From a virus, in the IMG/VR virus record IMGVR_UViG_3300027708_000068, positions 1 to 64,000 of that record: 64,000 nucleotides of DNA, one strand, 5' to 3'. The translations under genes and the position numbers were made by a program. This document shows, piece after piece, positions 7,156 through 35,829 of this stretch. The notes below the pieces were generated by a model. It saw nothing but the letters and a program-made list of their open reading frames with translations. It was not told where the DNA came from and did not search any database. Positions within the stretch are counted from its first letter, which is position 1; every line of letters begins with the position of its first letter.

Positions 7156-7168
7156 ATAACAATGTTAG
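7156..7168. promoter_or_regulatory. Palindromic site 5 over a start codon
   Basis: ATAACAATGTTAG, one outer mismatch. The ATG of the 34-residue membrane protein is the centre of the site, so a bound protein or the RNA hairpin would mask initiation. Confidence 0.75.
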
Positions 7169-7448: not shown

Positions 7449-7612
7449 TTATGGCTCGGGTTATGGAGAGAGAACTCGAGAAGTGGAAGAAAGAGCAAAA
7501 GACATTTAATAGCTGGACAGGCATAGAGCAGTTGTATGCAGAAGCCGCTTATCAAGATGGTTTTATGGCTGGTTTCTTGTTGAAGTTTACAAAGGCAGAT
7601 GAGAGGGGCTAA
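7430..7612 (+). CDS. Small helical early protein, unknown
   Basis: 60 residues, rich in charged helix (VMERELEKWKKEQKTF), then YAEAAYQDGFMAGFLLKF. The pattern resembles short phage proteins with a conserved AAYQDGF turn, but I cannot name a family. Its stop codon lies inside palindromic site 6. Confidence 0.75.
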   Translation: MSDDYLVMARVMERELEKWKKEQKTFNSWTGIEQLYAEAAYQDGFMAGFLLKFTKADERG

Positions 7613-7621
7613 CAATGTTAT
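7609..7621. promoter_or_regulatory. Palindromic site 6 at a stop-start junction
   Basis: CTAACAATGTTAT holds the TAA stop of the 60-residue gene and, two bases later, the ATG of the next. Confidence 0.75.
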
Positions 7622-7815
7622 ATGGGTTCGAATGTGAATGTGGTGACGAAGTAGATGCAAGGCGTATCGCAATAGGGTATCAGACTTGTTTGCGGTGCGG
7701 TGATGTAGAAGCTAAGCAGAGGAAGTTTTTAATAGCAAACTTTAATAAACAGGGGTATCAGTTGTTTAGCAACCCTGATGACTTACGATTTACTAACCCA
7801 AAGAGGACTACATAA
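7615..7815 (+). CDS. Zinc-ribbon protein, TraR/DksA-like finger
   Basis: 66 residues. C7, C9, C26 and C29 form a zinc-binding set: CECGDEVDARRIAIGYQTCL then RCG. The spacing and the RR...G...C..C pattern recall the finger of TraR/DksA proteins, which bind RNA polymerase in its secondary channel, although the first pair is CxC instead of CxxC and the coiled-coil tip is absent. It could act on host transcription or be a simple zinc ribbon. The ATG is embedded in a palindromic site. Confidence 0.7.
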   Translation: MLYGFECECGDEVDARRIAIGYQTCLRCGDVEAKQRKFLIANFNKQGYQLFSNPDDLRFTNPKRTT

Positions 7816-8054
7816 TGAAAGCATATGAAAAAATTGTAATGACACCTGACGAACTAGATGATGGCTCGGTGGTGATTAACTTTGATGTAGTAGATGACTA
7901 CAACATACCTACTAGACAAGGTGGATATGTAATATCTAGGAAAGACGAAGTAGATAACTGTTTTTATGTGGTTGTTTGTAATGAACAGGGTGATGTGCTT
8001 TCCGAAACCCAAGTGCCATTTACTTTTGTTGGGGGTGAAGATGAAGGTGATTAA
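7815..8054 (+). CDS. Acidic early protein, unknown
   Basis: 79 residues, strongly acidic with long beta-like stretches (GSVVINFDVVDDY; NCFYVVVCNEQGDVL). No known motif. It shares a TAATG stop-start with its upstream neighbour and overlaps the next gene by 14 bases. Its negative charge would suit a nucleic-acid mimic, but that is speculation. Confidence 0.75.
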   Translation: MKAYEKIVMTPDELDDGSVVINFDVVDDYNIPTRQGGYVISRKDEVDNCFYVVVCNEQGDVLSETQVPFTFVGGEDEGD

Positions 8055-8241
8055 GGTATTCATAAATCGTGAAACCGAACCACGATTCTTTGAGTATCGC
8101 AGAGTAGGTGAGAAAGGCTTGGAATTGTTTGAGGGTTGGTTATTGGTTGCTTACCCCCTAGATAAACCCGAGTCCAAGCGTAGTGCTAAGTGGCTAGACC
8201 CTAGCCGTTGTCGAGTTGATTGGATAAAGGAGTTTGTATGA
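8041..8241 (+). CDS. Small early protein, unknown
   Basis: 66 residues beginning MKVIKVFINRETEPRFFEYR. The longer frame starts at 7966, but ATG at 8041 has a GGGGGTGAAG ribosome site and gives the usual small overlap. Fairly basic, with several Trp and Arg residues. No family recognised. Confidence 0.7.
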   Translation: MKVIKVFINRETEPRFFEYRRVGEKGLELFEGWLLVAYPLDKPESKRSAKWLDPSRCRVDWIKEFV

Positions 8242-8456
8242 AACAAATTAGCCTAGTAGATGTAGCACGAGAGATTGAACAAGACCCTTTGCAAAAAGCC
8301 TTTGTGCTGACGGCATTGGAATCATATTGCCGTAGCGTTATTACAGACACAAGCGATTGGGGTAATTCCCTAGTCAATAAGGATGCTTGGGTAGCCATAG
8401 CAAGAGAAAACCTAACATTGTTAGGGTATGACGAAAACGGAAACAGGGTGGAATGA
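8238..8456 (+). CDS. Small helical early protein, unknown
   Basis: 72 residues. The start at 8238 (AAAGGAG 5 bases upstream, ATGA overlap) is preferred to the longer frame at 8220. It is predicted mostly helical. Palindromic site 7 encodes the NLTLLG segment near its C-terminus. Function unknown. Confidence 0.75.
   Translation: MKQISLVDVAREIEQDPLQKAFVLTALESYCRSVITDTSDWGNSLVNKDAWVAIARENLTLLGYDENGNRVE
8412..8424. promoter_or_regulatory. Palindromic site 7, exact, 15-bp form
   Basis: CTAACATTGTTAG, extended by flanking C and G, inside the 72-residue gene as Leu-Thr-Leu-Leu. It lies 34 bases before the next start codon (8458). Confidence 0.75.
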
Positions 8457-8457
8457 T

Positions 8458-8979
8458 ATGGGCTATCGAAGTGATGTGGGCGGAGTTATTAGTGTGAATA
8501 CTTGGGGTTATGAGCCTGAGACCCGAGAGGAACGAGACCTGACCATAACGAAATACAAAGAGATGATTGGGCTTATCAAGCTATCCAAGTTCTATGAAGT
8601 CATGAACTCAACCGAGACAGACCGAACTTGTATTGGGTGGAAGGATGGTTCGTTCTATTTCCATGCACAGAATTGGAAATGGTATCCCGACTATGATGTG
8701 GTGAGTGCGTGGGATGAGTTGTGGGTGCAGATGCAACAGGTAGAGGGTATATCAGGCTACTTTTGCAGAGTGGGCGAGGAGTTAGGTGACATAGTGCAAG
8801 AGGAATTTGGGGATGAACCCGACTATGATGCGTTCCACCCATACACAGGGATGAGTTGCGAGGTGGCAGACGAGACCTTTGGTGGTGGTGATATTGATGC
8901 AGAAACACAAGCAGTTAAACCTAACAATGTTATAGAGGGAGAAACAATATGTACGGACAGCAACGCAATACAGGCATAG
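8458..8979 (+). CDS. Conserved phage protein beginning MGYRSDV
   Basis: 173 residues. The MGYRSDVGG opening is seen on many phage and plasmid proteins of unknown function, and it fixes the start at 8458 rather than at the longer frame (8428). A GGGTGGA ribosome site precedes it. The mid-region contains several Trp and Tyr residues and an acidic stretch (VGEELGDIVQEEFGDEPDYD). A palindromic site near the end encodes PNNVI. The last 31 bases overlap the next gene. Confidence 0.8.
   Translation: MGYRSDVGGVISVNTWGYEPETREERDLTITKYKEMIGLIKLSKFYEVMNSTETDRTCIGWKDGSFYFHAQNWKWYPDYDVVSAWDELWVQMQQVEGISGYFCRVGEELGDIVQEEFGDEPDYDAFHPYTGMSCEVADETFGGGDIDAETQAVKPNNVIEGETICTDSNAIQA
8921..8933. promoter_or_regulatory. 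Palindromic site 8, one mismatch
   Basis: CTAACAATGTTAT inside the MGYRSDV gene, read as Asn-Asn-Val. It ends 15 bases before the next ATG at 8949. Confidence 0.7.
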
Positions 8980-9833
8980 TGCTACTACGCACTTACGAGG
9001 AAGCATTAAGTCATCTGGAGAATACGAAACCTATTCGTGGCAAAGGTTCTAATGCTGGAAAGATTGCACTTGGATATAGACATAGAACCGCAGAGTTTTA
9101 TATCGAGATGAACGCAGACAAGTCGATTGATTGTATGTGCTACCGCACGCCAGTCGTTAGCTTTAAGCCTGACGGCAATATCGTGGTACAAAGTGGTGGG
9201 TGGGCTAGCATCACTACTTGTATGTTCATTGAGGAAGTATTGGGTATCTCATCTAAGGTTAGGGATTGTTCAATAGTCGTTAGCTTTAATGGCGGAGAGT
9301 TCAAAGTTGATAACGAACTATGCTTAAAGCGTGTAGATGGTCGGCTGACCGCATTAAATCAAAAGCCAACCTATGTGCATAGAGTGAACCGCAAGCAAGC
9401 TAACATTGTTAGGAAGGAATACGCAGAGTTTAATTCTTACCTTAAAGGCTTTCTGAAGTTGCGTGAGGGTGGAATCATTCTTGATACCGAGTATATCAAT
9501 TTGTTTGGGGCAGACAATAAAAGAGGGGGTCATACAGTTAAAGCAGAGATGCCTGTGGATGTAGCACTACGAGATGAAGCACAAGTTCAGAAGTTAATTG
9601 ACCTCATGCAATCCAAAGACCCACAGAAAATGTATGAAGCCAGCTTGCGTATCATTAAGCAGTTCGGACATAGAAGTTATTGGCAGAATATGGGGTTTAG
9701 TATGCAACCTGCCAGTATAAAAAGGGCTATGGATAACCTGATATTCGCAAAACACAAGGATGTAATCTTTGATAAGGAAGAAGTGCCAGTAGGAACTATT
9801 AAGAAAGATTCTTGGTCACATTTGTTTAATTAA
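8949..9833 (+). CDS. Unknown 294-residue early protein
   Basis: I do not recognise it. The N-terminal half looks beta-rich (RTAEFYIEMNADKSIDCMCY; DGNIVVQSGGWAS). The C-terminal half is helical (LRDEAQVQKLIDLMQSKD). No catalytic motif, signal peptide or membrane helix is visible. It ends the operon driven from 7071 and has a GAGGGAG ribosome site. Palindromic site 9 encodes its ANIV. Proteins of this kind recur in environmental podovirus-like contigs as hypotheticals. Confidence 0.85.
   Translation: MYGQQRNTGIVLLRTYEEALSHLENTKPIRGKGSNAGKIALGYRHRTAEFYIEMNADKSIDCMCYRTPVVSFKPDGNIVVQSGGWASITTCMFIEEVLGISSKVRDCSIVVSFNGGEFKVDNELCLKRVDGRLTALNQKPTYVHRVNRKQANIVRKEYAEFNSYLKGFLKLREGGIILDTEYINLFGADNKRGGHTVKAEMPVDVALRDEAQVQKLIDLMQSKDPQKMYEASLRIIKQFGHRSYWQNMGFSMQPASIKRAMDNLIFAKHKDVIFDKEEVPVGTIKKDSWSHLFN
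9400..9412. promoter_or_regulatory. Palindromic site 9, exact
   Basis: CTAACATTGTTAG in the middle of the 294-residue gene, read as Ala-Asn-Ile-Val. It is far from any promoter or start codon. Confidence 0.75.
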
Positions 9834-9874
9834 GGGGGGTATAAAAATCTTTAGTTATGGTAAGACTGAATCAT

Positions 9875-9903
9875 TTGTATTTCGCACCACAGAATGTTAT
9901 AAT
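9875..9903 (+). promoter_or_regulatory. Early promoter, class A, consensus -10
   Basis: TTGTAT (9875-9880), 17-base spacer, TATAAT (9898-9903) preceded by TGT. It is nearly the same as the 7071 promoter across TTGTATTTCGYACCACA. It drives the AAA/VWA operon; palindromic site 10 lies 48 bases past the -10. Confidence 0.8.
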
Positions 9904-9950
9904 GGTATATAAAAATAAAAAAGTAGTAGAGCGTAGTAAAAACCAACCGC

Positions 9951-9963
9951 CTAACATTGTTAG
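9951..9963. promoter_or_regulatory. Palindromic site 10, longest (17 bp)
   Basis: CTAACATTGTTAG extended by two bases each side to GCCTAACATTGTTAGGC (9949-9965). It sits in the leader between the 9875 promoter and the ATPase gene, the best-formed copy and the most obvious operator. Confidence 0.85.
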
Positions 9964-9987
9964 GCACACACAAAAGGAAAAGTAGAA

Positions 9988-11055
9988 ATGGCTGAATTAA
10001 ATTTTGGTAAGACCCTTACACTCGCACAAGCATCTGAGTTATTGCTAGCGACCCCCGAGAATCGTTACTTATTACAAGGCGAGCCGGGAATTGGTAAATC
10101 TTCTTTACTCAAGACCTTAGGTCAAGCCTTACCCTCGCATGAGATTGCTTACATTGATGTACCAAACATGGACTTAGGTGATATTGCTATGCCAGTCGTA
10201 GACCATGAGAGCAAGACTACCGCCTACTACCCTAACCGCAGATTCAAAATGCACACGGGTAGACCCGTAGTAATTATGCTTGATGAGTTTACGAAGGGTG
10301 CAGACCCAGTTAAGAATATGTTGCACCCCCTACTAGAGAAGGCAAACCCTCGCTTGGGTGATGTGGAAGTTCACCCCGAATCTATTATCTTTATGACTGG
10401 TAATCTAGGTAGTGATGGGGTAGGCGATACATTGAAAGCCCATACTCGCAATCGAGTTGTGCCTGTGACTGTGCGTAAGCCTGATGCAGATGAGTGGTTA
10501 TCTTGGGCTATTAACAATGGTATTGCACCTGAGGTATGTGCATGGGTTCGTCAGTTCCCTCATGCTATGGCTAGCTATACCGAAGAAGGACAAGCAGAGA
10601 ATCAATACATCTATAACCCTAAGAAAGTTCAGATGGCGTTTGTATCTCCTCGTTCCCTCGAGACTGTATCTAACATTGTTAGTAAGCGTCATAGATTAGA
10701 TGCCGATACGCTAATAGCTAGTATGTCAGGTGCAGTAGGTGAATCAGCAAGTCGGGATATGCAAGCATACATTGAATATGCAGACCAGTTGCCTACATGG
10801 GATAACACTATTGCTAATCCGAAGTCAGCGTTAGTTCCTGAAAGTGCTGGTGCTTGTGCGATTGTAGTATTCGGTGCGATTGCGAAGATTGATAAGAATA
10901 CTATTGATACATTCATGACATATCTTGAACGATTTGAAAGTGAATGGCAAGCGTGTTTTGCTATCAATGTAGCTAAGTCTCCAAGCAAACAAGCGATTGC
11001 ATTTAGTAGCCGTAAGTTTACTGAGTGGGTTGCTAAGAACGAAGATTTGCTATGA
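9988..11055 (+). CDS. MoxR-type AAA+ ATPase
   Basis: 355 residues. Walker A GEPGIGKSS is at 31-39, Walker B VVIMLDEF at 94-101 (D99, E100) and sensor 1 MTGN at 136-139, in the arrangement of MoxR/CobS-like AAA+ proteins. Such ATPases work as hexameric remodelling chaperones, usually with a VWA-domain partner that recruits the substrate. The partner here is encoded at 11410, with two small genes between. The ribosome site is AAAGGAAAAG. Its stop overlaps the next ATG. It probably remodels a host or phage complex during early infection; the target is unknown. A palindromic site lies in frame (SNIV). Confidence 0.92.
   Translation: MAELNFGKTLTLAQASELLLATPENRYLLQGEPGIGKSSLLKTLGQALPSHEIAYIDVPNMDLGDIAMPVVDHESKTTAYYPNRRFKMHTGRPVVIMLDEFTKGADPVKNMLHPLLEKANPRLGDVEVHPESIIFMTGNLGSDGVGDTLKAHTRNRVVPVTVRKPDADEWLSWAINNGIAPEVCAWVRQFPHAMASYTEEGQAENQYIYNPKKVQMAFVSPRSLETVSNIVSKRHRLDADTLIASMSGAVGESASRDMQAYIEYADQLPTWDNTIANPKSALVPESAGACAIVVFGAIAKIDKNTIDTFMTYLERFESEWQACFAINVAKSPSKQAIAFSSRKFTEWVAKNEDLL
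10670..10682. promoter_or_regulatory. Palindromic site 11, exact
   Basis: CTAACATTGTTAG inside the ATPase gene, read as Ser-Asn-Ile-Val, the same peptide as in the VWA gene site. Confidence 0.75.
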
Positions 11056-11207
11056 AAAAAGAAAAGACTGAACCTAAAAAGCGTAAGGTAGTACAGAGGG
11101 ATACCATAAGCCGTCAGCGTGTAGAGCAGATACAAAAAAGTGGTATCGGTGAGATGCGTAAGCGGTTGTATGAGATGGGTATATTCGGAATGAAAGATAT
11201 TTTATAG
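11052..11207 (+). CDS. Small basic protein, 51 residues
   Basis: Begins MKKEKTEPKKRKVVQRDTIS and ends GIFGMKDIL, with about a third basic residues. It overlaps the ATPase stop (ATGA), so it is translationally coupled to it. It may be an accessory subunit of the AAA/VWA pair or a nucleic-acid binder. No family recognised. Confidence 0.75.
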   Translation: MKKEKTEPKKRKVVQRDTISRQRVEQIQKSGIGEMRKRLYEMGIFGMKDIL

Positions 11208-11215
11208 GGGGTCAT

Positions 11216-11407
11216 ATGGAAAAAGAAGATGAATCGTGTGTACTTAATTGGGAGGTGTTTGTAGTTGACCATAGCGATGAACTATGGGGTGTGGGTAGGT
11301 CTGTAACTAATAGTGATGGTAAGTTTCAGTATCAGAAATACCATAGGACATTTAACAGCGAATTAAAAGCTAAGCAAGTAGCAAACGAACTTAATAAGGA
11401 AAGCTAA
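11216..11407 (+). CDS. Small protein between ATPase and VWA genes
   Basis: 63 residues, with a beta-like core (CVLNWEVFVVDHSDELWGVG) and a C-terminal helix (SELKAKQVANELNKES). The ribosome site is TAGGGGGTC. It lies inside the MoxR/VWA operon; function unknown. Confidence 0.7.
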   Translation: MEKEDESCVLNWEVFVVDHSDELWGVGRSVTNSDGKFQYQKYHRTFNSELKAKQVANELNKES

Positions 11408-11416
11408 CAATGTTAG
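11404..11416. promoter_or_regulatory. Palindromic site 12, exact, over a start codon
   Basis: CTAACAATGTTAG contains the TAA stop of the 63-residue gene and the ATG of the VWA gene. From here sites recur at 1009, 904, 1006, 981 and 1117 bases. Confidence 0.8.
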
Positions 11417-12645
11417 ATAAAACTAAAGAAGTAGCAGATGAGTTTACGAAAGTAGATATGAGTAAAGAAGAACGCAGACTTAAGAAGGTCAAGATTTCAT
11501 TAATGCGTAATTCTAGGTTTGCATTATGGTCAGGCATCCTCATGGTCGGCAAGACTTATGTGCGTGATGATATAGATACGGCTTGCACCAATGGTCGTGA
11601 TGAGATTTATGGTAGTAGCTTTATCAAGTCGTTAGATGATAAAGAGTTAGCCTTTGTTGTATTACATGAGGCACTACATAAAGCATATCGTCATCTATTT
11701 ACATGGCGTAAGTTGGCAGAAGAAGATAAAGAATTAACTAATGCCGCTTGTGACTATGTAATTAACTTACAGCTAGTAGAGTTAGACCCAAACCAAGAAG
11801 TGATTGCTATGCCTATGAAAGAGGGCAAGGTAGTTGGCTTAGTAGATAAGCGATTTAAAGGTATGAACACCAAGCAAGTATTCGATATTCTAAAAGAAGA
11901 AGGTTTTGGTGGTGGCGGTGGCGGTGGTAAAGGGTTTGATGAGCATGATTGGGAAGGGGCTAAAGACTTAACTGATGAGGTTAAGAAAGAACTTGCAAAA
12001 GATATTGACCAAGCTATGCGGTCAGGTCTTATTGCACAGACTAAGCTACATGGTAAGGGTGGCGGTGGTATGAATCGTGAACTTGATGAGTTGCTTAACC
12101 CCAAGATTGATTGGCGTGAGCAGTTGCGTGAGTTTGTCAAGACTGTTTGTGCTGGTCGTGATTCATCCTCATGGCGTAGACCGAATCGTAGATACCTAGC
12201 CCAAGATGTATATATGCCTAGCATGGTATCCGAGAAGATTGGTCGTATTGCAATCGGTATTGATACTAGCGGTAGCCAAGGTGCGAGAGAAATTGCGGAT
12301 TGTTTGTCCGAGGTTCAAGGTATCGTCAATGAGGTATGCCCACAGTTTATTGACCTTGTGTATTGGGATGCAGAAGTTGCAAACCATGAACAGTACGAAG
12401 GGTCAGCCGTATCTAACATTGTTAGTGATACTAAAGTAATGGGTGGTGGTGGTACAGACCCTACTTGCATGGCGGTACATTTGAAAGAGCAGAGCATTAA
12501 ACCTGAGTGCATCATTCAGCTAACTGATGGCTATATCGGTAACTGGGGAACACCCGAAGAATGGCAAGATGTGCCAATGTTGTGGGCGATTGTTGGTGGT
12601 GGTAACGCAGTAGCACCAGTCGGTAAGACTATTTACATTAACTAA
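11410..12645 (+). CDS. DUF2201-type metallopeptidase-like/VWA protein
   Basis: 411 residues. The N-terminal domain has H-E-A-L-H at 86-90 followed by a second helix with NAACDYVIN, the pattern of the DUF2201 putative metallopeptidase domain. A Gly-rich linker (GFGGGGGGGKGF) joins it to a C-terminal von Willebrand A-like domain with DTSGS near 284-288 (metal-ion site) and LTDGY near 370. Proteins of this build are the usual partners of MoxR ATPases, here at 9988. Together they probably form a substrate-remodelling machine. Whether the HExxH site is active cannot be judged. The start codon is set inside a palindromic site. Confidence 0.9.
   Translation: MLDKTKEVADEFTKVDMSKEERRLKKVKISLMRNSRFALWSGILMVGKTYVRDDIDTACTNGRDEIYGSSFIKSLDDKELAFVVLHEALHKAYRHLFTWRKLAEEDKELTNAACDYVINLQLVELDPNQEVIAMPMKEGKVVGLVDKRFKGMNTKQVFDILKEEGFGGGGGGGKGFDEHDWEGAKDLTDEVKKELAKDIDQAMRSGLIAQTKLHGKGGGGMNRELDELLNPKIDWREQLREFVKTVCAGRDSSSWRRPNRRYLAQDVYMPSMVSEKIGRIAIGIDTSGSQGAREIADCLSEVQGIVNEVCPQFIDLVYWDAEVANHEQYEGSAVSNIVSDTKVMGGGGTDPTCMAVHLKEQSIKPECIIQLTDGYIGNWGTPEEWQDVPMLWAIVGGGNAVAPVGKTIYIN
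12413..12425. promoter_or_regulatory. Palindromic site 13, exact
   Basis: CTAACATTGTTAG in the VWA domain, read as Ser-Asn-Ile-Val. Confidence 0.75.
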
Positions 12646-12655
12646 GGAGAATGAA

Positions 12656-12805
12656 ATGGATAGGTGGGAGGAAGAATTTGAAGATTTATTTGATGATGTT
12701 GAGGGTTCGTTTGCGAACATGGCTAAGGCTTACTTCAAAGCTGGATGGATGTCAGCAATTCAAATCATGCAAGACAGAGTTGGAGAGGGGTTTGATGATG
12801 AGTAA
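12656..12805 (+). CDS. Small acidic protein, 49 residues
   Basis: MDRWEEEFEDLFDDVEGSFA and onward to VGEGFDDE. AAGGAG is 6 bases before the ATG at 12656, which is better spaced than the ATG at 12651 in another frame. Very acidic at both ends with a helical centre (AKAYFKAGWMSAIQIMQ). Function unknown; it follows the VWA gene by 10 bases. Confidence 0.75.
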   Translation: MDRWEEEFEDLFDDVEGSFANMAKAYFKAGWMSAIQIMQDRVGEGFDDE

Positions 12806-13046
12806 AGGCATACTAAATCTAGGCTATCAATCGTATGTAATAGATACACAAGATGCAGTTACTTTGTTTGAAATACTTAGCAAAGCGGAAAGGTATGAGG
12901 ATAAGTATCGAGGCTCAGGAAATAAAAACACAATCCATGTGTGGGAGCCTGATACAGACGAGCAGAACAAGTTTAGTTTTGCACTAATCCCCAATTCTAT
13001 TTATCGTGTCGCTAAGATGGCAGGTAAACCCGAGGATAAGTCATGA
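12798..13046 (+). CDS. Small early protein, unknown
   Basis: 82 residues starting MSKGILNLGYQSYVIDTQDA; ATG at 12795 is also possible. The longer frame from 12651 is rejected because its first part duplicates the 49-residue gene in another frame. The order helix (VTLFEILSKAERYEDKYR), strand (IHVWEPD), strand-helix suggests a compact fold. No family recognised. Confidence 0.7.
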   Translation: MSKGILNLGYQSYVIDTQDAVTLFEILSKAERYEDKYRGSGNKNTIHVWEPDTDEQNKFSFALIPNSIYRVAKMAGKPEDKS

Positions 13047-13222
13047 AGAAATATCAAGTGCTAGTAACTGGGAGTGCATACCTAGAGGGCGAGGGTAATA
13101 CCCCCGAAGAAGCTAGGTTGCAAGTGATGAACCGACTACAAAATATTCGGTTTGGTGTATGGGATTTAGATTTTGAATATGTATGTGATGAAGCAGACTT
13201 ATTGGAGAATGAAGATGATTGA
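13043..13222 (+). CDS. Small early protein, 59 residues
   Basis: MKKYQVLVTGSAYLEGEGNT followed by PEEARLQVMNRL, then an acidic tail. The strand-helix-strand pattern with a GxxxxxEGEGNTPEEA motif is common to small phage and plasmid proteins of unknown role. ATGA overlaps on the upstream side and an 8-base overlap on the downstream side support translation. Confidence 0.75.
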   Translation: MKKYQVLVTGSAYLEGEGNTPEEARLQVMNRLQNIRFGVWDLDFEYVCDEADLLENEDD

Positions 13223-13409
13223 AGTTACTTATGCAGATATGTTTTTAGGTGTAGTCGTTCTATTGTTGGGTGGCTTGCTGGTTAAGGCTAAGGTGGAATT
13301 GATTATGCACAAGAGACTAACAATGTTAGGTTTACAGGCGGTGATGGAAGGTGATGCCGAGATTGTTAGAGAAGATGGATACATTCAAATTAGAGGGGTA
13401 AGAAAATGA
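13215..13409 (+). CDS. Small membrane protein, 64 residues
   Basis: MIEVTYADMFLGVVVLLLGG then LLVKAKVELIMHK gives one transmembrane helix near residues 8-24, and a soluble tail of about 40 residues follows. The start at 13215 has GGAG 7 bases upstream and is preferred to 13209 or 13173. Palindromic site 14 encodes its RLTMLG. It is one of at least four very small membrane proteins in the early region. Confidence 0.75.
   Translation: MIEVTYADMFLGVVVLLLGGLLVKAKVELIMHKRLTMLGLQAVMEGDAEIVREDGYIQIRGVRK
13317..13329. promoter_or_regulatory. Palindromic site 14, exact
   Basis: CTAACAATGTTAG within the 64-residue membrane protein gene, read as Leu-Thr-Met-Leu. Confidence 0.75.
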
Positions 13410-13579
13410 TTGTATTTGAAATTGTAAATAAAAAGCATACTGAGAAGTTCAGCATGAAAGAGATGGGTTTAATCTATGACGCATTAAATGAGTACCCTCA
13501 ATGGAACGACGATGAAGATGATAACCCAACATCTCGCATCATGAACAAACTTTATAATTTATTGGAGAACGCAGAATGA
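13406..13579 (+). CDS. Small early protein, 57 residues
   Basis: MIVFEIVNKKHTEKFSMKEM then an acidic loop (EYPQWNDDEDDNPTSR) and a C-terminal helix. It overlaps both neighbours by ATGA. Function unknown. Confidence 0.75.
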   Translation: MIVFEIVNKKHTEKFSMKEMGLIYDALNEYPQWNDDEDDNPTSRIMNKLYNLLENAE

Positions 13580-14427
13580 GCATAGCATCTAGCGCAGTAT
13601 TAGTAGAGTTAAATATAAGCGTTTGGCCCGCAAACAAATTAGACAAAAGTGCAACCGAAGCGGTGATTGCGGATAACTCGGCTGGCAAAAACTCGGCACA
13701 GGTTCGTAAGAATCTATTGGCTGGCTCTAGCTTGCGTAAGGACATTAGCGATTATGCGGCTGGTACTCGCTTGTATAACAATAAGATTACTTTGCCATGG
13801 TCAGACAAGGGTGCAAGACTATTGCCGACTAGCTTGATGATGGACTACCGACCCAACATGAATAATCGACAGCAGTATTTTAATAAGCTGTTACTAAACT
13901 TTTATTCTAACTACGATACGCTAGTAGGCACAAGTAAGATTTACATGGGCAGTCTCTTTAACGAGAATGATTACCCACCCCTTGAGGAAGTGCAGAAGAA
14001 GTTTGGCTTTCGCTTAGTCTTTTCTCCGCTAGCAGAGAAGGGGGATTTCCGTATTGATGTAGGCAACCAAGACATAGAGGAACTATCAGAGAATTATGAA
14101 CAAGCGTACCAAGAACGAGTAGCCGAAGCTATGCGCAAACCTTGGGGTGACTTGCATGATTTGCTCAAAGGTATGAGCGGTAAGTTAGCTGATGTTGATG
14201 GCGAAGAAAAGAAAAGATACCACGAATCTTTTGTGTCTAATGCTCAGGCTATGTGCGGTTTGCTTACTAACTTAAATATTACTAAAGACCCTAAGTTAGA
14301 AGAAGCTAGGCGTGCATTGGAACTAACAATGTTAGGTGTGGACATTGAGGAAGTTAAGGATAGCCCGATAGTCAGAGTAGAGTTAAAGACGAAGATTGAT
14401 GACATTCTTAAGAAGTTTGATTGGTAA
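13576..14427 (+). CDS. Unknown 283-residue protein near MoxR/VWA genes
   Basis: Mostly helical, with an N-terminal segment SAVLVELNISVWPANKLDKS, a conserved-looking LPWSDKGARLLPTSLMMDY block and a C-terminal coiled region. The arrangement, and the occurrence beside MoxR and VWA genes, recall DUF3150 proteins found in similar neighbourhoods of phages and mobile elements. I hold that link as tentative. No catalytic residues identified. Palindromic site 15 encodes ELTMLG near the end. Confidence 0.8.
   Translation: MSIASSAVLVELNISVWPANKLDKSATEAVIADNSAGKNSAQVRKNLLAGSSLRKDISDYAAGTRLYNNKITLPWSDKGARLLPTSLMMDYRPNMNNRQQYFNKLLLNFYSNYDTLVGTSKIYMGSLFNENDYPPLEEVQKKFGFRLVFSPLAEKGDFRIDVGNQDIEELSENYEQAYQERVAEAMRKPWGDLHDLLKGMSGKLADVDGEEKKRYHESFVSNAQAMCGLLTNLNITKDPKLEEARRALELTMLGVDIEEVKDSPIVRVELKTKIDDILKKFDW
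14323..14335. promoter_or_regulatory. Palindromic site 15, exact
   Basis: CTAACAATGTTAG inside the 283-residue gene, read as Leu-Thr-Met-Leu; it is followed by GGT exactly as in site 14. Confidence 0.75.
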
Positions 14428-14447
14428 TATTAACTAAGGAAAACGAA

Positions 14448-15293
14448 ATGACAAATAAATTTGTAGAAAAAAGTGAGTTCATTAACACGGACTTTGATAA
14501 GTTACAAACGGATGCACGAGCACAAACCATTCATGGGGTTAATCCACACTTAGCGGTGTTAGCGCAAGCAGTAATTGCAAAGTACCCACAATGGCAGTTA
14601 GTTGCGGTTAGGGCAGACCAGCATATTACGCACGAAAATGTAAGTGGTAGATTAGTTACTAATTTTAATATTATCGAAAAGCGTGAGAAGTTGGGTTATA
14701 TCGGTTGGGACTATTCATATAGTCGTGGTGACCAATATGTAGTTGGCAACGATAGAATCTCTGAACAAATGGAACGCCAGACGCATACTAAGACTACGAA
14801 GATAGATGTAGCTATGCGACATATTAAGAAACACTTTAGCCCCAAGACTACTGACGAACACTTTGCTAAGTCGGTTGCTGAGGCGTCACAAAACATCCAT
14901 AGACAAGCGCAAAATATTAACTATGAGGTAAGAAGTAACTATAGTGATATACAGCAAGAAGTCCTTGATTTTGTTGATGCTAATTGGACATTATTTACAT
15001 CTACGCTAAACAACACAAAGGTTGTAATGGCAGCTAAATATTTAAACCAAAAAAACAAACTAGAAACTATAAATAAGATACAGGAAGCTAATCTAAGAAA
15101 ATTGTCACACGATATATTGCTACGAGGTAACGAATATGTTATAAGGCATAAAGGGGTCATTAGTATTTTTGACAACGAGCATTTGCCACAAGAACTAAAA
15201 ATGAAACTAGGTATGCTTAAGCTAGTAGGAGTAGGTGAGATGGTAGATGGTATTGGCTATCGTGGCACAGAAGATTGTTTTATTGTTATTTAA
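14448..15293 (+). CDS. Unknown 281-residue early protein
   Basis: Starts MTNKFVEKSEFINTDFDKLQ at 14448, where AAGGA lies 8 bases upstream; the longer frame (14421) is less likely. The first 110 residues look beta-rich (WQLVAVRADQHIT; RGDQYVVGNDRIS), followed by a long helical region. No known motif. It ends a few bases before the next palindromic start site. Confidence 0.8.
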   Translation: MTNKFVEKSEFINTDFDKLQTDARAQTIHGVNPHLAVLAQAVIAKYPQWQLVAVRADQHITHENVSGRLVTNFNIIEKREKLGYIGWDYSYSRGDQYVVGNDRISEQMERQTHTKTTKIDVAMRHIKKHFSPKTTDEHFAKSVAEASQNIHRQAQNINYEVRSNYSDIQQEVLDFVDANWTLFTSTLNNTKVVMAAKYLNQKNKLETINKIQEANLRKLSHDILLRGNEYVIRHKGVISIFDNEHLPQELKMKLGMLKLVGVGEMVDGIGYRGTEDCFIVI

Positions 15294-15303
15294 CTAAGGA
15301 GAA

Positions 15304-15316
15304 CTAACAATGTTAG
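15304..15316. promoter_or_regulatory. Palindromic site 16, exact, over a start codon
   Basis: CTAACAATGTTAG with the ATG of the 62-residue gene at its centre, preceded by AAGGAGAA. Fourth case of a site masking an initiation codon. Confidence 0.8.
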
Positions 15317-15498: not shown

Positions 15499-15499
15499 T

Positions 15500-15676
15500 A
15501 TGACGGAAGAAACTAAAAGAAAAGGTCGAGGTAAGGGTAAAACCCCACCTATGCTAAGCACAAGTATCCGCTTATCAACAGACATAGTAGAGTATTTCAA
15601 AGGGAGGTATCCGCATAAGTGGCAGTCAGAAATGCGGAAGGTGTTAATTAATTTTATTGGGAAGGAGAATAAATGA
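15500..15676 (+). CDS. Ribbon-helix-helix protein, BrnA antitoxin-like
   Basis: 58 residues. A basic tail (KRKGRGKGK) is followed by STSIRLSTDIVEYFKGR and WQSEMRKVLINFI, which matches the strand-helix-helix pattern of BrnA-type antitoxins (IRL..D....F...G..WQ..M...L). Such proteins bind short palindromes as dimers. No BrnT toxin is encoded beside it, so it may be an orphan antitoxin or a phage regulator; it is one candidate to bind the 13-bp palindrome. The start at 15500 is internal to a longer frame. Confidence 0.75.
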   Translation: MTEETKRKGRGKGKTPPMLSTSIRLSTDIVEYFKGRYPHKWQSEMRKVLINFIGKENK

Positions 15677-16131: not shown

Positions 16132-16159
16132 TTGACAGAGTAAAGAACTATGCTATACT
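16132..16159 (+). promoter_or_regulatory. Early promoter, class B, with consensus -35
   Basis: TTGACA (16132-16137), 16-base spacer, TATACT (16154-16159) preceded by TGC. It shares GACAGAGTAAAGAA-C-ATG-TATACT with the promoter at 24449. The predicted start of RNA is at or next to the ATG of the VRR-NUC gene (16166). Confidence 0.85.
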
Positions 16160-16165: not shown

Positions 16166-16474
16166 ATGGCTAGCACACCCGAAAAAAAAGTAAAAGACAG
16201 TTGCGTTAAGCTCTTAAAGAGCTATGGTGCATACTATTTCTACCCTGTTATGACAGGGTTTGGGCGCTCAGGAATCCCCGACATCATTAGTTGTGTTAGA
16301 GGTAAGTTCCTAGCCATAGAGTGTAAGGCTGGCGACAATAAGACCACCGCACTACAAGAACGAGAACTACAAAAAATAAATGAGGCTGGAGGCGTATCGT
16401 TGGTAATCAATGAGACGAACCTAACAATGTTAGATGAGATACTAAAAGGATTGACGCATGGAACGAAATTCTGA
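16166..16474 (+). CDS. VRR-NUC domain nuclease, possibly leaderless
   Basis: 102 residues forming a single VRR-NUC domain: TPEKKVKDSCVKLLKSYGAY, then SGIPD at 35-39 (D39), AIECKAG at 50-56 (E52, K54) and Q64. These are the PD-(D/E)XK catalytic positions. The family cuts branched DNA and occurs in phage recombination modules. The N-terminus matches family starts, so ATG 16166 is well fixed. The -10 box ends only 6 bases before it and there is no ribosome site, so the mRNA may be leaderless. Palindromic site 17 encodes NLTMLD near the end. Confidence 0.92.
   Translation: MASTPEKKVKDSCVKLLKSYGAYYFYPVMTGFGRSGIPDIISCVRGKFLAIECKAGDNKTTALQERELQKINEAGGVSLVINETNLTMLDEILKGLTHGTKF
16421..16433. promoter_or_regulatory. 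Palindromic site 17, exact, last of the dense cluster
   Basis: CTAACAATGTTAG in the VRR-NUC gene, read as Leu-Thr-Met-Leu. No further copy occurs for 12 kb. Confidence 0.75.
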
Positions 16475-29317: not shown

Positions 29318-29405
29318 TATACTATAAGGGCAGACCACGTCTGCTTTTCCTTGGAAGATAGCTCCTTCCTACCCTCTTTGTCCCCGCCTAGTGCGGGGAT
29401 TTTTT
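29318..29405 (+). ncRNA. Possible small structured RNA ending in terminator
   Basis: A TATACT box (29318-29323) would place an RNA start near 29330, but the -35 region is weak. The next 75 bases fold into three hairpins: GCAGAC-CAC-GTCTGC, GGAAG with CTTCC, and the terminator stem. No frame of any length is present. It could be a phage small RNA or only the 3' end of the early mRNA. Confidence 0.35.
29382..29405 (+). terminator. Rho-independent terminator at early/late convergence
   Basis: CCCCGC-CTAGT-GCGGGG followed by A and six T residues. It ends early transcription exactly where the leftward late block also ends (29404). Confidence 0.92.
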
Positions 29406-32400
29406 ACTTTTGCCCTTGCTTAAGGACTGGAATAAAGTAAGCAAGCATGTCTTCTGTTGGAATACGTACGCCTTTGTAAGTTAAAGCACGGGCATCTAAC
29501 GCGGCATTTAATGTGTTATCAATAGCCTCCCCATCAACCATTAACTTTTCCATACCAATATATTTTTTATTGTGCTGGCGAATTTGATTAATAACTGGCT
29601 GCAAATCTTTCTTGTCACCATTAAATTCTTTGTTCAAGATAGCGTCATTCATATGTTGCAGAATTTTAGTTCTATCTTGATTAGCTTTGATATATTCACC
29701 CTTAAGTTCAAAGCCAACTTCTTGTGTACGAGCTAACTTAGTAGGAGGAGAGCCTGCAGCCTGGGCTAAAATGTTAGCTATAGTTATATCTTCCTTCTTA
29801 ATAATAGTGTCGCCAGCTTTAGTCTTAGCACCTTCTGTTGCAAGTCGTGCAGCCACTAAAGGATTTTTAAAGAAAGCAGGCAAAGCTTTTTCTAAACCAC
29901 GTTCAATATGACCATTCTCAAAGTCATCTAATGCACCAGCTTGACCTAGGATACCTGATACCGCTGGTCCAATGTTAGCCAATATAAAATTGTTAAACGC
30001 TTCTTTATTAGTCTTAGCAGGTTGGCCTCCACGGAACCACAAGTTATCGAACGATGTACGTGAGCCAATGTTAATGTCAGTAATTGAAGAGATAGGACCG
30101 CTATAAAGCATATCTGCTGTTACAGGACCAAAGTTCTCTTGTAAGAATCTACGGAAACGCAAGTCTGCGTTCTGATACACCAACGGGTTTTGTGCACGGC
30201 GACGGCGTTTCTCTTCATCATCCTCACCTAAGTCACTTAAAGCTTCTACTACTGCACCAACAGTACTATAGAGCGGCATACCTTTTAGACCATGGAACAT
30301 AGCGCCCATCATCAATACACCACCAAGAATTTTCATACTTTCAGCAGCTTCTTTAGGGTTCTTCATAACCTGAGTAGAAGTATAGGCATGGCGGATAAAG
30401 AAAGATGTCATGTTAGCTGCATACATTTTGAACTGAGAAATAACAGGAGCGTATTTAAATGCTTCAGGTCTTTCCATTGCATCGTAGCGACCCATATTAT
30501 CTTGCACAGCAGCAATAGCTTTATTAATAGACTCATCAAAATTCTTAGTCTTTTCATAGTGCAACTCAAATGCCATCATGGATGCAATCTCACGGCTGAT
30601 ACGCTCGGAACCGCTAAACAAACCAGACATAATATTTGCAGTAGTACGTAGTACTTTCTTAGGCAGATTAAGGGTTGCATTTAATGGAGTGCGACCACGT
30701 TGGGAAAGAAGGTTATTCTCGGTAAATGCAAACAAGCCACGTTCTTTAAGTTCAGCATAAGCTTTTGATAGGGTCTTGTTATTCTTAACACGGGTTGAAT
30801 CAGCTACAGATATTGTGACAACAGGTAGATGGTCAGGCGACATCTTAGCTTGATAACCCATACTATTTAAAATATTTGAGTAAGCCGCGAACTTGGCGGA
30901 TGCTCTACCAACACCATAGCGTGCAGCCATTACTGGGTAAATCATTACGGGTACAGCTACTAGCTGAACTGCTGCAGACATAGCTCCTGTAAGCAACATG
31001 TAATATGCGTAGCGAGTAGCCAAAGAAGCTAGTATGTTAGGTGTCGGTGGGTTTAACTGTTCAACTGCCCTACGAGATACAGCATCAATAAACAAGCCAA
31101 GCTTAGCTTGCTCTGGGTTTCCAGACAAACTATCCCTTGCACGGGTAATCTCAGCTTCCATTTGGTCTGCATATTTAAGGCGTGGGATTTGACTAGCTAT
31201 ACGGTTAGCAGATTCGGTAAAATTACGGAACACATCGGCACTAAAGCCAGCTACATTTTCTGCGTGTAAAAACTGCTTACGAATACTAGACTCAGGCAAA
31301 GTCATTAACCAAGTTTGATAGAGTTGGTCTTTAAGTTCTTCGCTAGAGATTTCATCCATCTTAGCTTTGTCAACAATCTCAAACATGTTTTTTAGCATTG
31401 AGCTTTCACGATGGTTAGTGCGACGCAAGGAGGCAATATCATTACCTTCACTCATTTCGTTATCAGTAAACATCTGCTCTACGGATTTATTAGCTTCTCT
31501 AGCTTTCTTAATCTTATATAGCTCACGTTGCGCTGCAGTATCAAACAAAATAAAGCCTTTATCAGCACCCGCTTCACGCAACCAAACTGCGCCATGGCGC
31601 ATCAATGGGAAGTATTCTTGTATTGCATCCTTCTCTTGCATCTTGCGAATCTCAGCCATTAACTGGCCTTTAGGAGTCTTCTCATCTTTAACATCACCGG
31701 GCAACTCTTGTAGGCGCTCAATCCGCTCATCTAGTAAGTGGCGTGTAAGGTTGTAGTTATCTTTGTAAAACTGACGTACCATCTTATACATCTCATGGCC
31801 ACCTTCAACTTTACCTAAACGCTCCCAAGCATCATAAACAACTTGAATGTCATTCTTACGTTTAGTTACTTGGCCTTTTAAAGAAGGTAGTTTTACTGGG
31901 TCAGTAGCAGGGTCATTAATCTGTGCTTCTATAGCTTTAATCTTAGGGTCAGCTGCAACAGCGTCAATAGCGGTAGCGTGCGCATCTGGTGTAACACCTT
32001 TTAAACGCCCTAGGTGCATTGAGTTACCTAACAACTTATCATTGCCTTTACCACTTACAAGCCATTCAGCTAATTCATCGGTTTTCTTTGCATAGGCATC
32101 AAGCATACTTGTACGCATAGCAGACATCTTTTGCGTAAAGTCATCAATCTCTTTTAGACCCGGAATTTTATCCCCCATCCAACGGATAATGTCAGATGTA
32201 CGCAATACATAAAGCATAGCTTGAATAGCATCTTGCCCCATGCCTTTAAGCTTAGAGTTTAAATAATCTTTATAATCTTGGAAGTCATGCCCGTCTCTAA
32301 TAACCCCGCCCAAACCTTCGGTAATCTCATGTATCTTTTGGCTAAGCATAACCTTCTTAACATCACGGTCAACTTTCTCTACCTTATCTTTCTTTTGACG

Positions 32401-35400
32401 AGCTGCGCTTACTCCCGATACTTCTATTGTTGGCTTGTATTGTAATAAACCTTCAGTAACAAGTATTAAATCTTGCAGAGCAGACTGGTGGTTTCTATCC
32501 ATGGCAAATAACTGACGAATAGAATTAGTAAAGGCATTGAATAAAGTTTTAAAGAATCCTGGTTGGTCAGGAATTGCTTCGCCCTTAGTTTCTAACAAAA
32601 ACTGTTGCATAACATCTTCAGTTAAGCCATAAGCAACAAATTCTTTTAAGTCTTCAAACACGCCAACACGGTTAAACAAATCATCAAGGCGTGGGTCAAC
32701 TGGCTCACCAGATAATTTCTTTTCTAAAAAAGCATCTTGTGCATTAAACATAGCCATCTCTAGACCATGAATAGCATCTAGTAAAGCCGCTGGTATTTTA
32801 GAACCCCGCTCAAGTAGTTGTAGGTATTCGTCAATACGGGCATTGGTTGCAGCATGTAAAGCTTCGTGCAGGAATACGGTATTATTTGTGCCTTGGAAAT
32901 CTTGAGCATTACCAAAAGCTGGGCCACGTAAAAAGATGAATTTAAGGGTCTTTCCATCAGTAGGTCTTGTCCATTGACCAAATACACCATTAGCACCTTG
33001 GAAAGAATCTTTAAGAGTACCATCTGTAGTTCTTAACTCTGGTAATTCATTCTCTGCATTAACAATTTGTAATTGCACATCCTTAAGGAATGGAGCCAAA
33101 CGGCGGGCCAAGAAACGCTCAAAGGTTGTACCGTTTGCAAGGATATGGTTAATAGCTTGCTGAGTAGTCTTAAAGCCTAAGTACTTATCATTATGTACAC
33201 CACTAGTTGTAGTCTGTGAAGATTTAGATACCTTAGCAATGCCACGTTTTTTTGTATCAGCACGTACTTGAATATTAGCACGTTCTTGTGGAGTAATAGA
33301 TGGGTGGTCCAAACCTACCTTAGCGGTTGCACCTAATTTACCAGAACGTTGAGGGCCAGTAGCTACACCATGTAATGTATCTAGTGCTTGGTTGCGGTCA
33401 GTTCTATAACGCATGCCAGCATCAAGGTACGCATCTTGAGTTTTAAATTCGTCTCTTGACGGCTCAGGAAGTTCAAGAACGGCTTTAGCTGCAGCTATTT
33501 GTTTGTCTGTGGCTTTCCACTCTTTAGTCTGGGTAGCCTTAGCTTGCTTCTTAGCAACAGCTTCTTCAGGGGTTAATACGGCGGCTGGACGACCAGTACG
33601 TTTACCTTTAGTTGCTTGTGGAGCTGTAGTTGTGGTTGTTTCTGTGGGTGTGGTTGTAAGTAAACTAGCAGCTTCGCTTGATACATCTATAGGATAACCA
33701 GCCATTAAACCATTTGCGTATTTAAGACCTAGTTCATATGCTTGTTTTTCTTGTTTATTTTTGTAATCTTTAGCGCCTTTAGAATATCCATTTCTTGCAT
33801 CTCTGCCGCCCATTTCAAAAGCATTAATTAAAGGCCATCTTTCCGCAGGGGGTTGGTCAAACCCGGGTCTTCCATCTGTTCTTACATTATTTGTATTAAA
33901 CAATGTATGCGCCATTGTACCCGTATCATTTTGAACTTTTTGGCTTTCTGATGAGTCAAGACTTTGTAAACCAGGAGTAACTGGTGTTGCTTTTATAGGT
34001 GCAGGTGCTGCCGTAGTTGGAGTAGGTTGTGTAGTGACTTTAGGAATAACTACTTTGCTAACTGTTTCATCAAATGCCGGATGCAATGTACCTAAGTCAC
34101 TAGAATTTAAATTACCTTCTTCTAGTAAGTAGTCAGCAAATTCATTAGCTTTTTTCTTACCTATAGCTGGAGTAAAGTGTTGCAAAATATATGAACGAAC
34201 TTTTTTCATGGTAGGGGATTTACCAGTCTGTTCGTACTCTTGTTGAGCTATTTTATAACCCTCTTGTGCTTGTTGAAGCACACCCATTACTTGTGCTGAG
34301 GCTTGGATTCTATCGTTTAATGCACTTGGTTCATTCGTTTGCACAGCCTCTGTTCGTACTCCAGGTTGTCCAGTAGCTCCGACAGGGCTTGCCAATCCTG
34401 TAGGTTGAGATGTCGTAACTCCTCCGGTGGGCTGAAGTCCATCTTGAGGCACAGAAACGCTTGGCTGATTTGCTCCGGGGACAACTCCATTACTCTGCTG
34501 TGTTCCATTTTGTGTCTCCTCTAATACTAATTTTTGTGCATCTGCTAATGGTATACCAAGTTCAGTTGCTTTGGCTTGTACTTGCGCTTCTATATTTGGC
34601 GCTGATGCTTGCGCTGCAGTTTGTTTTATTGCAGTATCTAAAGGCATTGCAGGTATTGGAGTGCCTTCAGCAGATTGAACTACTGGTCCAGGAGGAGGTG
34701 TAGGTGTAGGTTGTCTTGCTGCAATAGCTTCTTTTTGTGCGGATTTAAATGTACTTACTGCGCCAGCAGGAGCACCGAATATTTCACCAAGACCTTCTTC
34801 CATAATTGCAATTGGGTCTAAGTTTTGGCTAGCTGCTAAGGAACCAATAGTTTCTCCAGCCATACCGTACAACGCTTGCACACCGACTTCTTTACCTACT
34901 TGTTTAGCAACGTCTTTTGCCACGCCTCTTTCTACATCTTTAAGCACGGTACGAGCTGCATTACCCGCAGAACCGAATGAGGCTGCATCAAACAAACCAA
35001 TAGCACCAGACTTAACTCCAGCCTTTTCCCAAGCTTCATCGTGTGGCATACCTTGTGCACGGTACTCAGCGTAGGTATTACCGAACTCCATCATTGCGGA
35101 AGTTGCGCCTGCTGAAGCCGCTGCAGTTGTAGGGCCTAGCTTAAAGAAAGATGCAAGTATTGCAGGTACAGCCATAACCAAAGAAGAAGGGGCTGACTCT
35201 AAACCAATACCAGCGATGTATCCAGGAATTTCAGATTTGTTGTTTAACAGAGTAGAACCATAAGCTTTTAGCTTATCAAACGTATCTAGCTTCTCATACT
35301 CTGGGCTGCTACCCATAGCACGGATTTCTTTTTGTAATGGGTTAATACCACGTTTTTGTTCGATAGCTGCACGTTCTTCACCATATCCAGCTATCTGTTG

Positions 35401-35829
35401 AATCTTATCTTGAATAGCTTTGTCTCGTGCGCTAATAGCTTCTAATTCGCTGGCAGGAGCTTTCTCGTAGAACTCGCCATACTTACGTTTATCAGCTGCT
35501 TGTAATTCCATTAAGCTAGCAATTTGGTTTGCCGTTGCCGCTTGTTTAACACCAACAAAACCTTTTTCCACAGCGCCTAAACTAGCTTGGCTTGGGGTAA
35601 GTACGTCAGTTACTGCTCTATTAATATCTGATATAGCACCAGTTATTCCAGTGCTCTCGGGTTCTTCTGTAGGTGCGGCAGATACGGTTACTTGCCCCTG
35701 TGGTTCTGGTTGTGCAGATATTTTCTGAGTTGGCAGAATATCATTTTGAATGGCCGCAAGAATAGCATCTTGGGACATAGAGTCGGGGAAATTAACCTGC
35801 CCAACATTAGGTATATTTACGATTGGCAT
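29404..35829 (-). CDS. Giant internal virion protein with HExxH motif
   Basis: 2141 residues, the largest product. Size, last place in the late block and N-terminus (PNVGQVNFPDSMSQDAILAA) mark it as an ejected internal virion protein, analogous in role to T7 gp16. Residues 988-992 are H-E-A-L-H in TVFLHEALHAATNARI, a zinc-metalloprotease-like motif. Hydrophobic stretches lie near 210-245 and 1620-1670 (YYMLLTGAMSAAVQLVAVPV), suited to crossing the host envelope during DNA delivery. Low-complexity Gln/Pro/Thr linkers occur near 375-500 and 600-740. No lysozyme or transglycosylase motif is obvious. Confidence 0.88.
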   Translation of the reverse strand: MPIVNIPNVGQVNFPDSMSQDAILAAIQNDILPTQKISAQPEPQGQVTVSAAPTEEPESTGITGAISDINRAVTDVLTPSQASLGAVEKGFVGVKQAATANQIASLMELQAADKRKYGEFYEKAPASELEAISARDKAIQDKIQQIAGYGEERAAIEQKRGINPLQKEIRAMGSSPEYEKLDTFDKLKAYGSTLLNNKSEIPGYIAGIGLESAPSSLVMAVPAILASFFKLGPTTAAASAGATSAMMEFGNTYAEYRAQGMPHDEAWEKAGVKSGAIGLFDAASFGSAGNAARTVLKDVERGVAKDVAKQVGKEVGVQALYGMAGETIGSLAASQNLDPIAIMEEGLGEIFGAPAGAVSTFKSAQKEAIAARQPTPTPPPGPVVQSAEGTPIPAMPLDTAIKQTAAQASAPNIEAQVQAKATELGIPLADAQKLVLEETQNGTQQSNGVVPGANQPSVSVPQDGLQPTGGVTTSQPTGLASPVGATGQPGVRTEAVQTNEPSALNDRIQASAQVMGVLQQAQEGYKIAQQEYEQTGKSPTMKKVRSYILQHFTPAIGKKKANEFADYLLEEGNLNSSDLGTLHPAFDETVSKVVIPKVTTQPTPTTAAPAPIKATPVTPGLQSLDSSESQKVQNDTGTMAHTLFNTNNVRTDGRPGFDQPPAERWPLINAFEMGGRDARNGYSKGAKDYKNKQEKQAYELGLKYANGLMAGYPIDVSSEAASLLTTTPTETTTTTAPQATKGKRTGRPAAVLTPEEAVAKKQAKATQTKEWKATDKQIAAAKAVLELPEPSRDEFKTQDAYLDAGMRYRTDRNQALDTLHGVATGPQRSGKLGATAKVGLDHPSITPQERANIQVRADTKKRGIAKVSKSSQTTTSGVHNDKYLGFKTTQQAINHILANGTTFERFLARRLAPFLKDVQLQIVNAENELPELRTTDGTLKDSFQGANGVFGQWTRPTDGKTLKFIFLRGPAFGNAQDFQGTNNTVFLHEALHAATNARIDEYLQLLERGSKIPAALLDAIHGLEMAMFNAQDAFLEKKLSGEPVDPRLDDLFNRVGVFEDLKEFVAYGLTEDVMQQFLLETKGEAIPDQPGFFKTLFNAFTNSIRQLFAMDRNHQSALQDLILVTEGLLQYKPTIEVSGVSAARQKKDKVEKVDRDVKKVMLSQKIHEITEGLGGVIRDGHDFQDYKDYLNSKLKGMGQDAIQAMLYVLRTSDIIRWMGDKIPGLKEIDDFTQKMSAMRTSMLDAYAKKTDELAEWLVSGKGNDKLLGNSMHLGRLKGVTPDAHATAIDAVAADPKIKAIEAQINDPATDPVKLPSLKGQVTKRKNDIQVVYDAWERLGKVEGGHEMYKMVRQFYKDNYNLTRHLLDERIERLQELPGDVKDEKTPKGQLMAEIRKMQEKDAIQEYFPLMRHGAVWLREAGADKGFILFDTAAQRELYKIKKAREANKSVEQMFTDNEMSEGNDIASLRRTNHRESSMLKNMFEIVDKAKMDEISSEELKDQLYQTWLMTLPESSIRKQFLHAENVAGFSADVFRNFTESANRIASQIPRLKYADQMEAEITRARDSLSGNPEQAKLGLFIDAVSRRAVEQLNPPTPNILASLATRYAYYMLLTGAMSAAVQLVAVPVMIYPVMAARYGVGRASAKFAAYSNILNSMGYQAKMSPDHLPVVTISVADSTRVKNNKTLSKAYAELKERGLFAFTENNLLSQRGRTPLNATLNLPKKVLRTTANIMSGLFSGSERISREIASMMAFELHYEKTKNFDESINKAIAAVQDNMGRYDAMERPEAFKYAPVISQFKMYAANMTSFFIRHAYTSTQVMKNPKEAAESMKILGGVLMMGAMFHGLKGMPLYSTVGAVVEALSDLGEDDEEKRRRRAQNPLVYQNADLRFRRFLQENFGPVTADMLYSGPISSITDINIGSRTSFDNLWFRGGQPAKTNKEAFNNFILANIGPAVSGILGQAGALDDFENGHIERGLEKALPAFFKNPLVAARLATEGAKTKAGDTIIKKEDITIANILAQAAGSPPTKLARTQEVGFELKGEYIKANQDRTKILQHMNDAILNKEFNGDKKDLQPVINQIRQHNKKYIGMEKLMVDGEAIDNTLNAALDARALTYKGVRIPTEDMLAYFIPVLKQGQK

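Follow-up and report, generated by a model that had tools for sequence, protein, structure and literature searches.

What does a phage do with a MoxR-type ATPase encoded next to a DUF2201/VWA protein, and what is controlled by the palindrome in front of the two genes? These questions are raised by positions 9988–12645 of a 64-kb stretch (hereafter the window) out of the 66.6-kb uncultivated virus record IMGVR_UViG_3300027708_000068. Early genes occupy its + strand from ~5.4 kb onward, and the terminase, structural and tail-type genes are on the − strand. Our answer, which we hold to be probable rather than firm, is that a MoxR–VWA machine of the phage N4 type is combined with an array of palindromes in the early region that would be bound by the self-regulating product of open reading frame (ORF) 5568. 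The pair is an already-known phage module; what is new here are the spacer classes of the arrays, the candidate binder and the selection acting on sites inside genes. The genes at the centre of this account, with protein lengths in amino acids (aa), are:

5568..6071, + strand: 167-aa protein of a new family, encoded by the first gene of the array; candidate binder of the palindromes, its identity tracking the spacer class
9988..11055, + strand: 355-aa MoxR-type AAA+ ATPase, homologous to gp24 of phage N4 (PF07728, 2.2e-7; phrog_1297, 5e-45)
11410..12645, + strand: DUF2201_N metallopeptidase-like domain plus VWA, 411 aa, homologue of N4 gp25 (PF13203, 8e-31; PF09967, 5e-13)
13576..14427, + strand: 283-aa DUF3150-like protein, encoded by the module's frequent third gene (in 80/90 contigs)

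The palindrome CTAACA-N-TGTTAG occurs in the window in 12 exact copies (18 with one mismatch), where 0.18 were expected and none of 100 shuffles reached the count. All copies but one fall in 5423–16433, forming an array of ~17 copies over 11 kb of early genes, and they are mostly within coding sequence, including the MoxR, VWA and DUF3150 genes:

5423..5435: palindrome CTAACAATGTTAG upstream of ORF 5568
5539..5551: copy with one mismatch in the ORF 5568 leader
6051..6063: palindrome at the end of ORF 5568
6348..6360: copy with one mismatch (CTCACAATGTTAG)
7156..7168: copy with one mismatch
7609..7621: copy with one mismatch across the ATG of ORF 7615
8412..8424: palindrome
8921..8933: copy with one mismatch within ORF 8428
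9400..9412: palindrome within ORF 8949
9951..9963: palindrome between the promoter-like box and MoxR
10670..10682: palindrome within MoxR, codons for SNIV, residue 230
11404..11416: palindrome across the VWA start codon, recurring at the VWA start in many relatives
12413..12425: palindrome within VWA, SNIV, residue 337
13317..13329: palindrome
14323..14335: palindrome within the DUF3150 gene, LTMLG, residue 252
15304..15316: palindrome across the start codon of ORF 15310
16421..16433: final copy in the array, within the Hjc/VRR-NUC-like gene

The sequence-only reading had given the MoxR–VWA pair its own palindrome-controlled early promoter. The palindrome at 9951–9963 is one site of the region-wide array and does not belong to this operon alone, whereas the promoter itself fared better:

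9875..9903, + strand: promoter-like box upstream of MoxR, TTGTATTTCGCACC...TATAAT (TTGTAT-17-TATAAT), with a 14-mer identical at 5468 and 7071

A local promoter at this position is plausible because the box shares the 14-mer with the boxes at 5468 and 7071, although a consensus scan of the region for sigma-70 sites showed no excess (18 found, 28.5 expected).

Most of the ~115 relatives have their own palindrome array, usually of 5–22 exact copies, against a maximum of 1–2 in 236 Markov shuffles. The commonest type is CTAACA-N1-TGTTAG, others having N2 or N3 spacers or different half-sites, and one spacer class dominates in each phage, a few mixed cases apart. Sites were essentially confined to the early region in the longer records that were followed. 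Among one-base variants, the change C>A at the outer left base (38 cases) is mirrored by G>T at the outer right base (38), and there is no G–U wobble bias (9 vs 10); this pattern suggests that the element works as DNA, recognised by a symmetric dimer, and not as RNA. Dispersed palindromes with unrelated half-sites were also seen in five more distant phages (L029, L033, L036, L039 and L126).

Sites inside genes follow the spacer class. The palindrome at residue 230 of MoxR is present in 31/39 N1-class, 3/17 N2-class and 0/4 N3-class phages, that at residue 337 of VWA in 33/40, 0/18 and 0/4, and that at residue 252 of the DUF3150 protein in 26/33, 0/17 and 0/4 respectively. Phages of the other classes often code the same or similar residues at these places by different codons (e.g. 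SNIV as AGCAACATTGTC). Because the residues are kept with other codons and the palindromes go with the cognate class, this comparison shows the intragenic sites to be maintained as DNA fitting the phage's own spacer class and not as a by-product of protein sequence. Selection for regulatory DNA inside conserved genes is evident across dozens of phages.

Which protein, then, would read these sites? ORF 5568 is flanked in most relatives by one site upstream and one near its stop codon, and sequence and profile searches of Pfam, PHROG, PDB and INPHARED found no relative of it. Among phages with a VWA identity of 0.7–0.8, ORF 5568 identity was 0.413 within a spacer class and 0.185 between classes, with no such drop for MoxR (0.802 and 0.805) or for a small neighbouring protein (0.567 and 0.620) that might itself bind palindromes:

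15500..15676, + strand: ribbon-helix-helix (RHH) protein, BrnA antitoxin-like, 58 aa, rejected rival binder (PF14384, 3.6e-6)

Phages with 86–90% identical VWA yet different spacers shared just 12–36% identity in ORF 5568. Permuting the spacer-class labels matched the effect in 0/5000 cases for ORF 5568 and in 4507/5000 for the RHH control. As label permutation does not fully remove relatedness, a comparison of families and a tree were added. The spacer-class effect was largest for ORF 5568 among the neighbouring families tested (0.180 vs 0.057 for the next independent family), and a tree of VWA plus MoxR held five changes of spacer class and six of ORF 5568 type, all independent pairs on well-supported branches (3/3) being concordant between the two. 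Another family, ORF cluster 29, had seemed array-linked but is apparently an overlapping frame of a conserved gene and was set aside.

The ORF 5568 proteins fall into two types that are distant homologues (hhalign 97.8%), type I going with N1 (and N3) arrays and type II with N2. The N1:N2 site counts of phages with a type II gene run from 18:1 (L053) through 4:4 (L068), 6:11 (L065) and 2:13 (L122) to 0:16 (L106); type II proteins with wholly or partly N1 arrays would fit recent gene replacement followed by stages of retuning. Comparison of relatives shows the array and ORF 5568 to be coupled, and we consider it quite likely, from this co-variation, that the ORF 5568 product is the palindrome binder.

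In the mechanism that we propose, the ORF 5568 protein, encoded first in the array, would be made early and would bind the palindromes as a dimer with a half-site spacing specific to the phage. On accumulating, it would repress its own promoter and roadblock or silence transcription of the early operon, MoxR–VWA included; given binding, we lean slightly towards such silencing of early genes. The array more likely governs timing, in a phage that is lytic or does not integrate, than classical lysogeny, because no tyrosine integrase or resolvase (PF00589, PF00239) was matched in eight long genomes, one of them 49 kb of unestablished completeness; lysogeny-type repression by an integrating prophage was rejected on the same result. 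More broadly, there is in our view an even chance that ORF 5568 founds a family of phage DNA-binding proteins that studs the early region of non-integrating phages with cognate palindromes in and between genes and shuts early transcription, the acquisition of a variant with a new spacing then leading selection to retune the whole array, coding sequence included. If true, this would give the dispersed palindromes of integrase-less phages, such as those of Corndog, a directly testable candidate for their binder.

As to the pair that the array would silence, Pfam and PHROG profile matches bore out its presence. The ATPase has the Walker A, Walker B, sensor and arginine-finger residues of an AAA+ protein, with these motifs kept in essentially all relatives (~38 compared); its placement in the MoxR subfamily is based on the VWA pairing and phrog_1297, not on a tree. 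The adjacent VWA protein has an intact MIDAS (DxSxS, T, D; here DTSGS / GGGGT / TDG), as is proper to a MoxR–VWA pair, and it does keep the complete HExxH that had been read from its translation (HEALHKAYRH at residue 86, pattern HExxHxxxxH), which is invariant in 40/40 sequences spanning it in the DUF2201_N domain. Loss of ATPase or MIDAS residues in relatives had been named as an objection, and these residues are kept in essentially all of ~40 relatives. The MoxR cluster is present in 88/90 contigs and the VWA cluster in 89/90, strictly paired, and 733 INPHARED records carry a VWA match. An AlphaFold (AF2) model of the VWA protein (mean pLDDT 75.9) resembles VWA/MIDAS folds in its C-terminal part (Ro60, integrin I domains and MDN1-MIDAS); a sequence profile search of PDB with this protein gave nothing credible. 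These data support an intact chaperone-type pair with a metallopeptidase-like N-terminal domain, for which peptidase activity is possible given the conserved HExxH. The VWA/metallopeptidase family is named ‘HNH endonuclease’ in PHROG 1314 and in many phage records, a spreading label that the Pfam result does not back and that we correct here.

By the established logic of the family, the MoxR ring would dock via the VWA/MIDAS domain and remodel a specific partner complex. The partner may be an early or replication complex because the pair sits among replication genes, on the + strand between conserved early genes and the DNA polymerase and apart from the − strand structural genes; judged from this neighbourhood, the proposal is as apt to be wrong as right. 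The DUF3150 protein shares the same surroundings. PF11348 was matched by 13/27 aligned DUF3150-like homologues (best 1.1e-6), the window copy alone staying below threshold, and a homologue in phage MinM2 is annotated DUF3150. MoxR, DUF3150 and VWA occur together in this Synechococcus phage and in a Simplicispira plasmid region, and DUF3150 stands beside VWA in several other Burkholderiales plasmids. A scan of genome contigs gave only three DUF3150 loci, none was found within the first 50 kb of N4, and a PDB fold search using a DUF3150 model gave nothing below an E value of 0.001. Our best guess from this neighbourhood is that DUF3150 is a candidate subunit or substrate of MoxR–VWA.

Several points weigh against the explanation that we favour. 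Just 3/5 of the independent switches stand on well-supported branches, and the sign test alone gives p = 0.25. In L053 an N1 array accompanies a type II protein, which may reflect a recent replacement or be a true exception. Profile searches of Pfam, PHROG and PDB recognised no DNA-binding fold in ORF 5568, and no homologue of it was detected in the five more distant palindrome-bearing phages within the available stretch. Many arrays, though not all, have sites spaced more evenly than random; the link to DUF3150 is one of neighbourhood and is missing from the N4 stretch searched; and in group 2.2 jumbo phages a pair with these domains has been suggested to act in virion assembly (PMC7824862).

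The main rival, doubtful as we judge it, is that the array serves genome organisation, replication or partition in a parS-like manner and not transcription control. Sites lying within genes, often spaced more evenly than random, would suit such a role, as would their lack of orientation and the missing match to a tyrosine integrase or resolvase, but in the genomes followed the sites hardly extend outside the early region, and they stand beside the promoter-like box of the first gene and across start codons. It is unlikely, too, that the pair works in virion assembly, processing structural proteins, as the jumbo-phage proposal and the conserved HExxH, with its possible peptidase activity, might suggest: the pair is on the early/replication side of the + strand, distant from the structural genes of the − strand, and the N4 pair likewise lies among non-structural genes.

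That the palindromes are bound by the RHH protein instead of the ORF 5568 product is improbable. RHH dimers are classic palindrome binders, the profile match is BrnA-like (3.6e-6), and the protein is found in most array-bearing contigs, but its identity does not follow the spacer class (residual effect −0.024, equalled in the great majority of permutations) and near-identical RHH proteins occur alongside N1, N2 and N3 arrays. The protein is conserved in most array-bearing relatives, and no BrnT toxin was noticed adjacent to it.

Two small ORFs of 51 and 63 codons do lie between MoxR and VWA, and had been taken for possible cofactors of the pair:

11052..11207, + strand: 51-aa small protein, clade-limited, resembling the sigma-70 region 4 recognition helix, homologues in the nearest relatives only
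11216..11407, + strand: 63-aa orphan ORF

The start of the first overlaps the MoxR stop by 4 nt. A search for the 63-aa ORF across 40 relatives/loci at E 0.01 found no homologue, the 51-aa gene occurs in 10/38 N1-class and 0/20 N2/N3-class contigs, and in many relatives the gap from MoxR to VWA is only 2–50 bp. The intervening genes are not conserved with the pair, so this half of the claim fails, and the comparison indicates that neither small gene belongs to the MoxR–VWA machine. The 51-aa protein could be a transcription regulator in its own right: its relatives in L005 and L006 match PF04545 at ~1e-4, just under the Pfam cut-off, over the final third of the profile for sigma-70 region 4, i.e. 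the recognition helix, and the window copy gave no PF04545 match.

The further suggestion that MoxR, the two small proteins and VWA form a dedicated counter-defence or host-shutoff machine is very improbable and gained no evidence. Bacterial conflict systems do have MoxR–vWA pairs at their core (PMC7159879), but the small genes are not conserved, and a scan of ten genes surrounding the pair turned up no third VMAP or iSTAND component and no effector domain. A core function fits better than an accessory weapon because the pair adjoins replication genes, is strictly paired and occurs in hundreds of phages including N4. Weakest of all is the idea that the palindromes are RNA hairpins in early transcripts (e.g. 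for antitermination or mRNA stability), which has in its favour that all sites are in transcribed early genes and that short stems are possible, but which the mirror-symmetric substitutions, the missing wobble bias and the impossibility of a full hairpin with an N1 spacer make highly improbable.

Other features of the window were noted in passing:

4838..5060: AT-rich intergenic stretch at the switch from − to + strand genes, with the short repeats TTTTGTTGACAT (twice) and CCCGTTCGGGAA (twice); possibly an origin or promoter region
8949..9833, + strand: conserved gene of unknown function upstream of MoxR, in 63/90 contigs
16132..16159: near-consensus sigma-70 promoter (TTGACA-16-TATACT, 11/12) directly upstream of the Hjc/VRR-NUC-like nuclease gene at 16166
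29404..35829, − strand: one ORF of 2141 aa, a very large polyvalent-type protein

Among known systems, the pair most plainly recalls gp24 and gp25 of N4 (Schitoviridae), a MoxR-type ATPase gene followed by a DUF2201/VWA gene, both caught by the profiles built here (gp24 at 1.4e-23); unlike the window, N4 lacks a dispersed palindrome array, and its first 50 kb contain no DUF3150 homologue. Work on N4-like roseophages lists the two proteins of the pair under the names ATPase and vWFA (PMC2784036). The MoxR–vWA pair of group 2.2 jumbo phages, with its N-terminal metallopeptidase, was put forward as a chaperone pair (PMC7824862) and has the same domain combination, HExxH domain included, but the virion-assembly proposal fits less well here because the window pair is in the early/replication region with DUF3150. 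The isolated cyanophage MinM2 (L049, OQ594354) and Burkholderiales plasmids resemble the window in having the MoxR, DUF3150 and VWA families in one neighbourhood. MinM2 also has a repeated palindrome of its own, GGTTCAG-N-CTGAACC, in 12 copies, but nearly all of these are tens of bp upstream of gene starts around MoxR–DUF3150–VWA and not within genes, and no ORF 5568 homologue was found in it.

The array has two precedents among mycobacteriophages. The stoperators of Cluster A (L5-type repressor sites) are likewise many dispersed 13-bp sites thought to silence transcription, but they are asymmetric, oriented with transcription and found in temperate phages (PMC4351075), whereas the window sites are palindromic, vary mirror-symmetrically and are largely intragenic, in a phage where no integrase was found. 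Closer are the 17-bp dyad repeats of Cluster O (Corndog), >30 dispersed perfect palindromes of which about one-third are within genes, in phages with no integrase and with a predicted dimeric binder (PMC4351075). Both arrays have many perfect dyads, partly intragenic, in phages where no integrase was found, and by analogy they may work alike; the window array differs in being limited to the early region, in having spacer classes that vary among relatives and in offering, through co-variation, a candidate gene for the binder.

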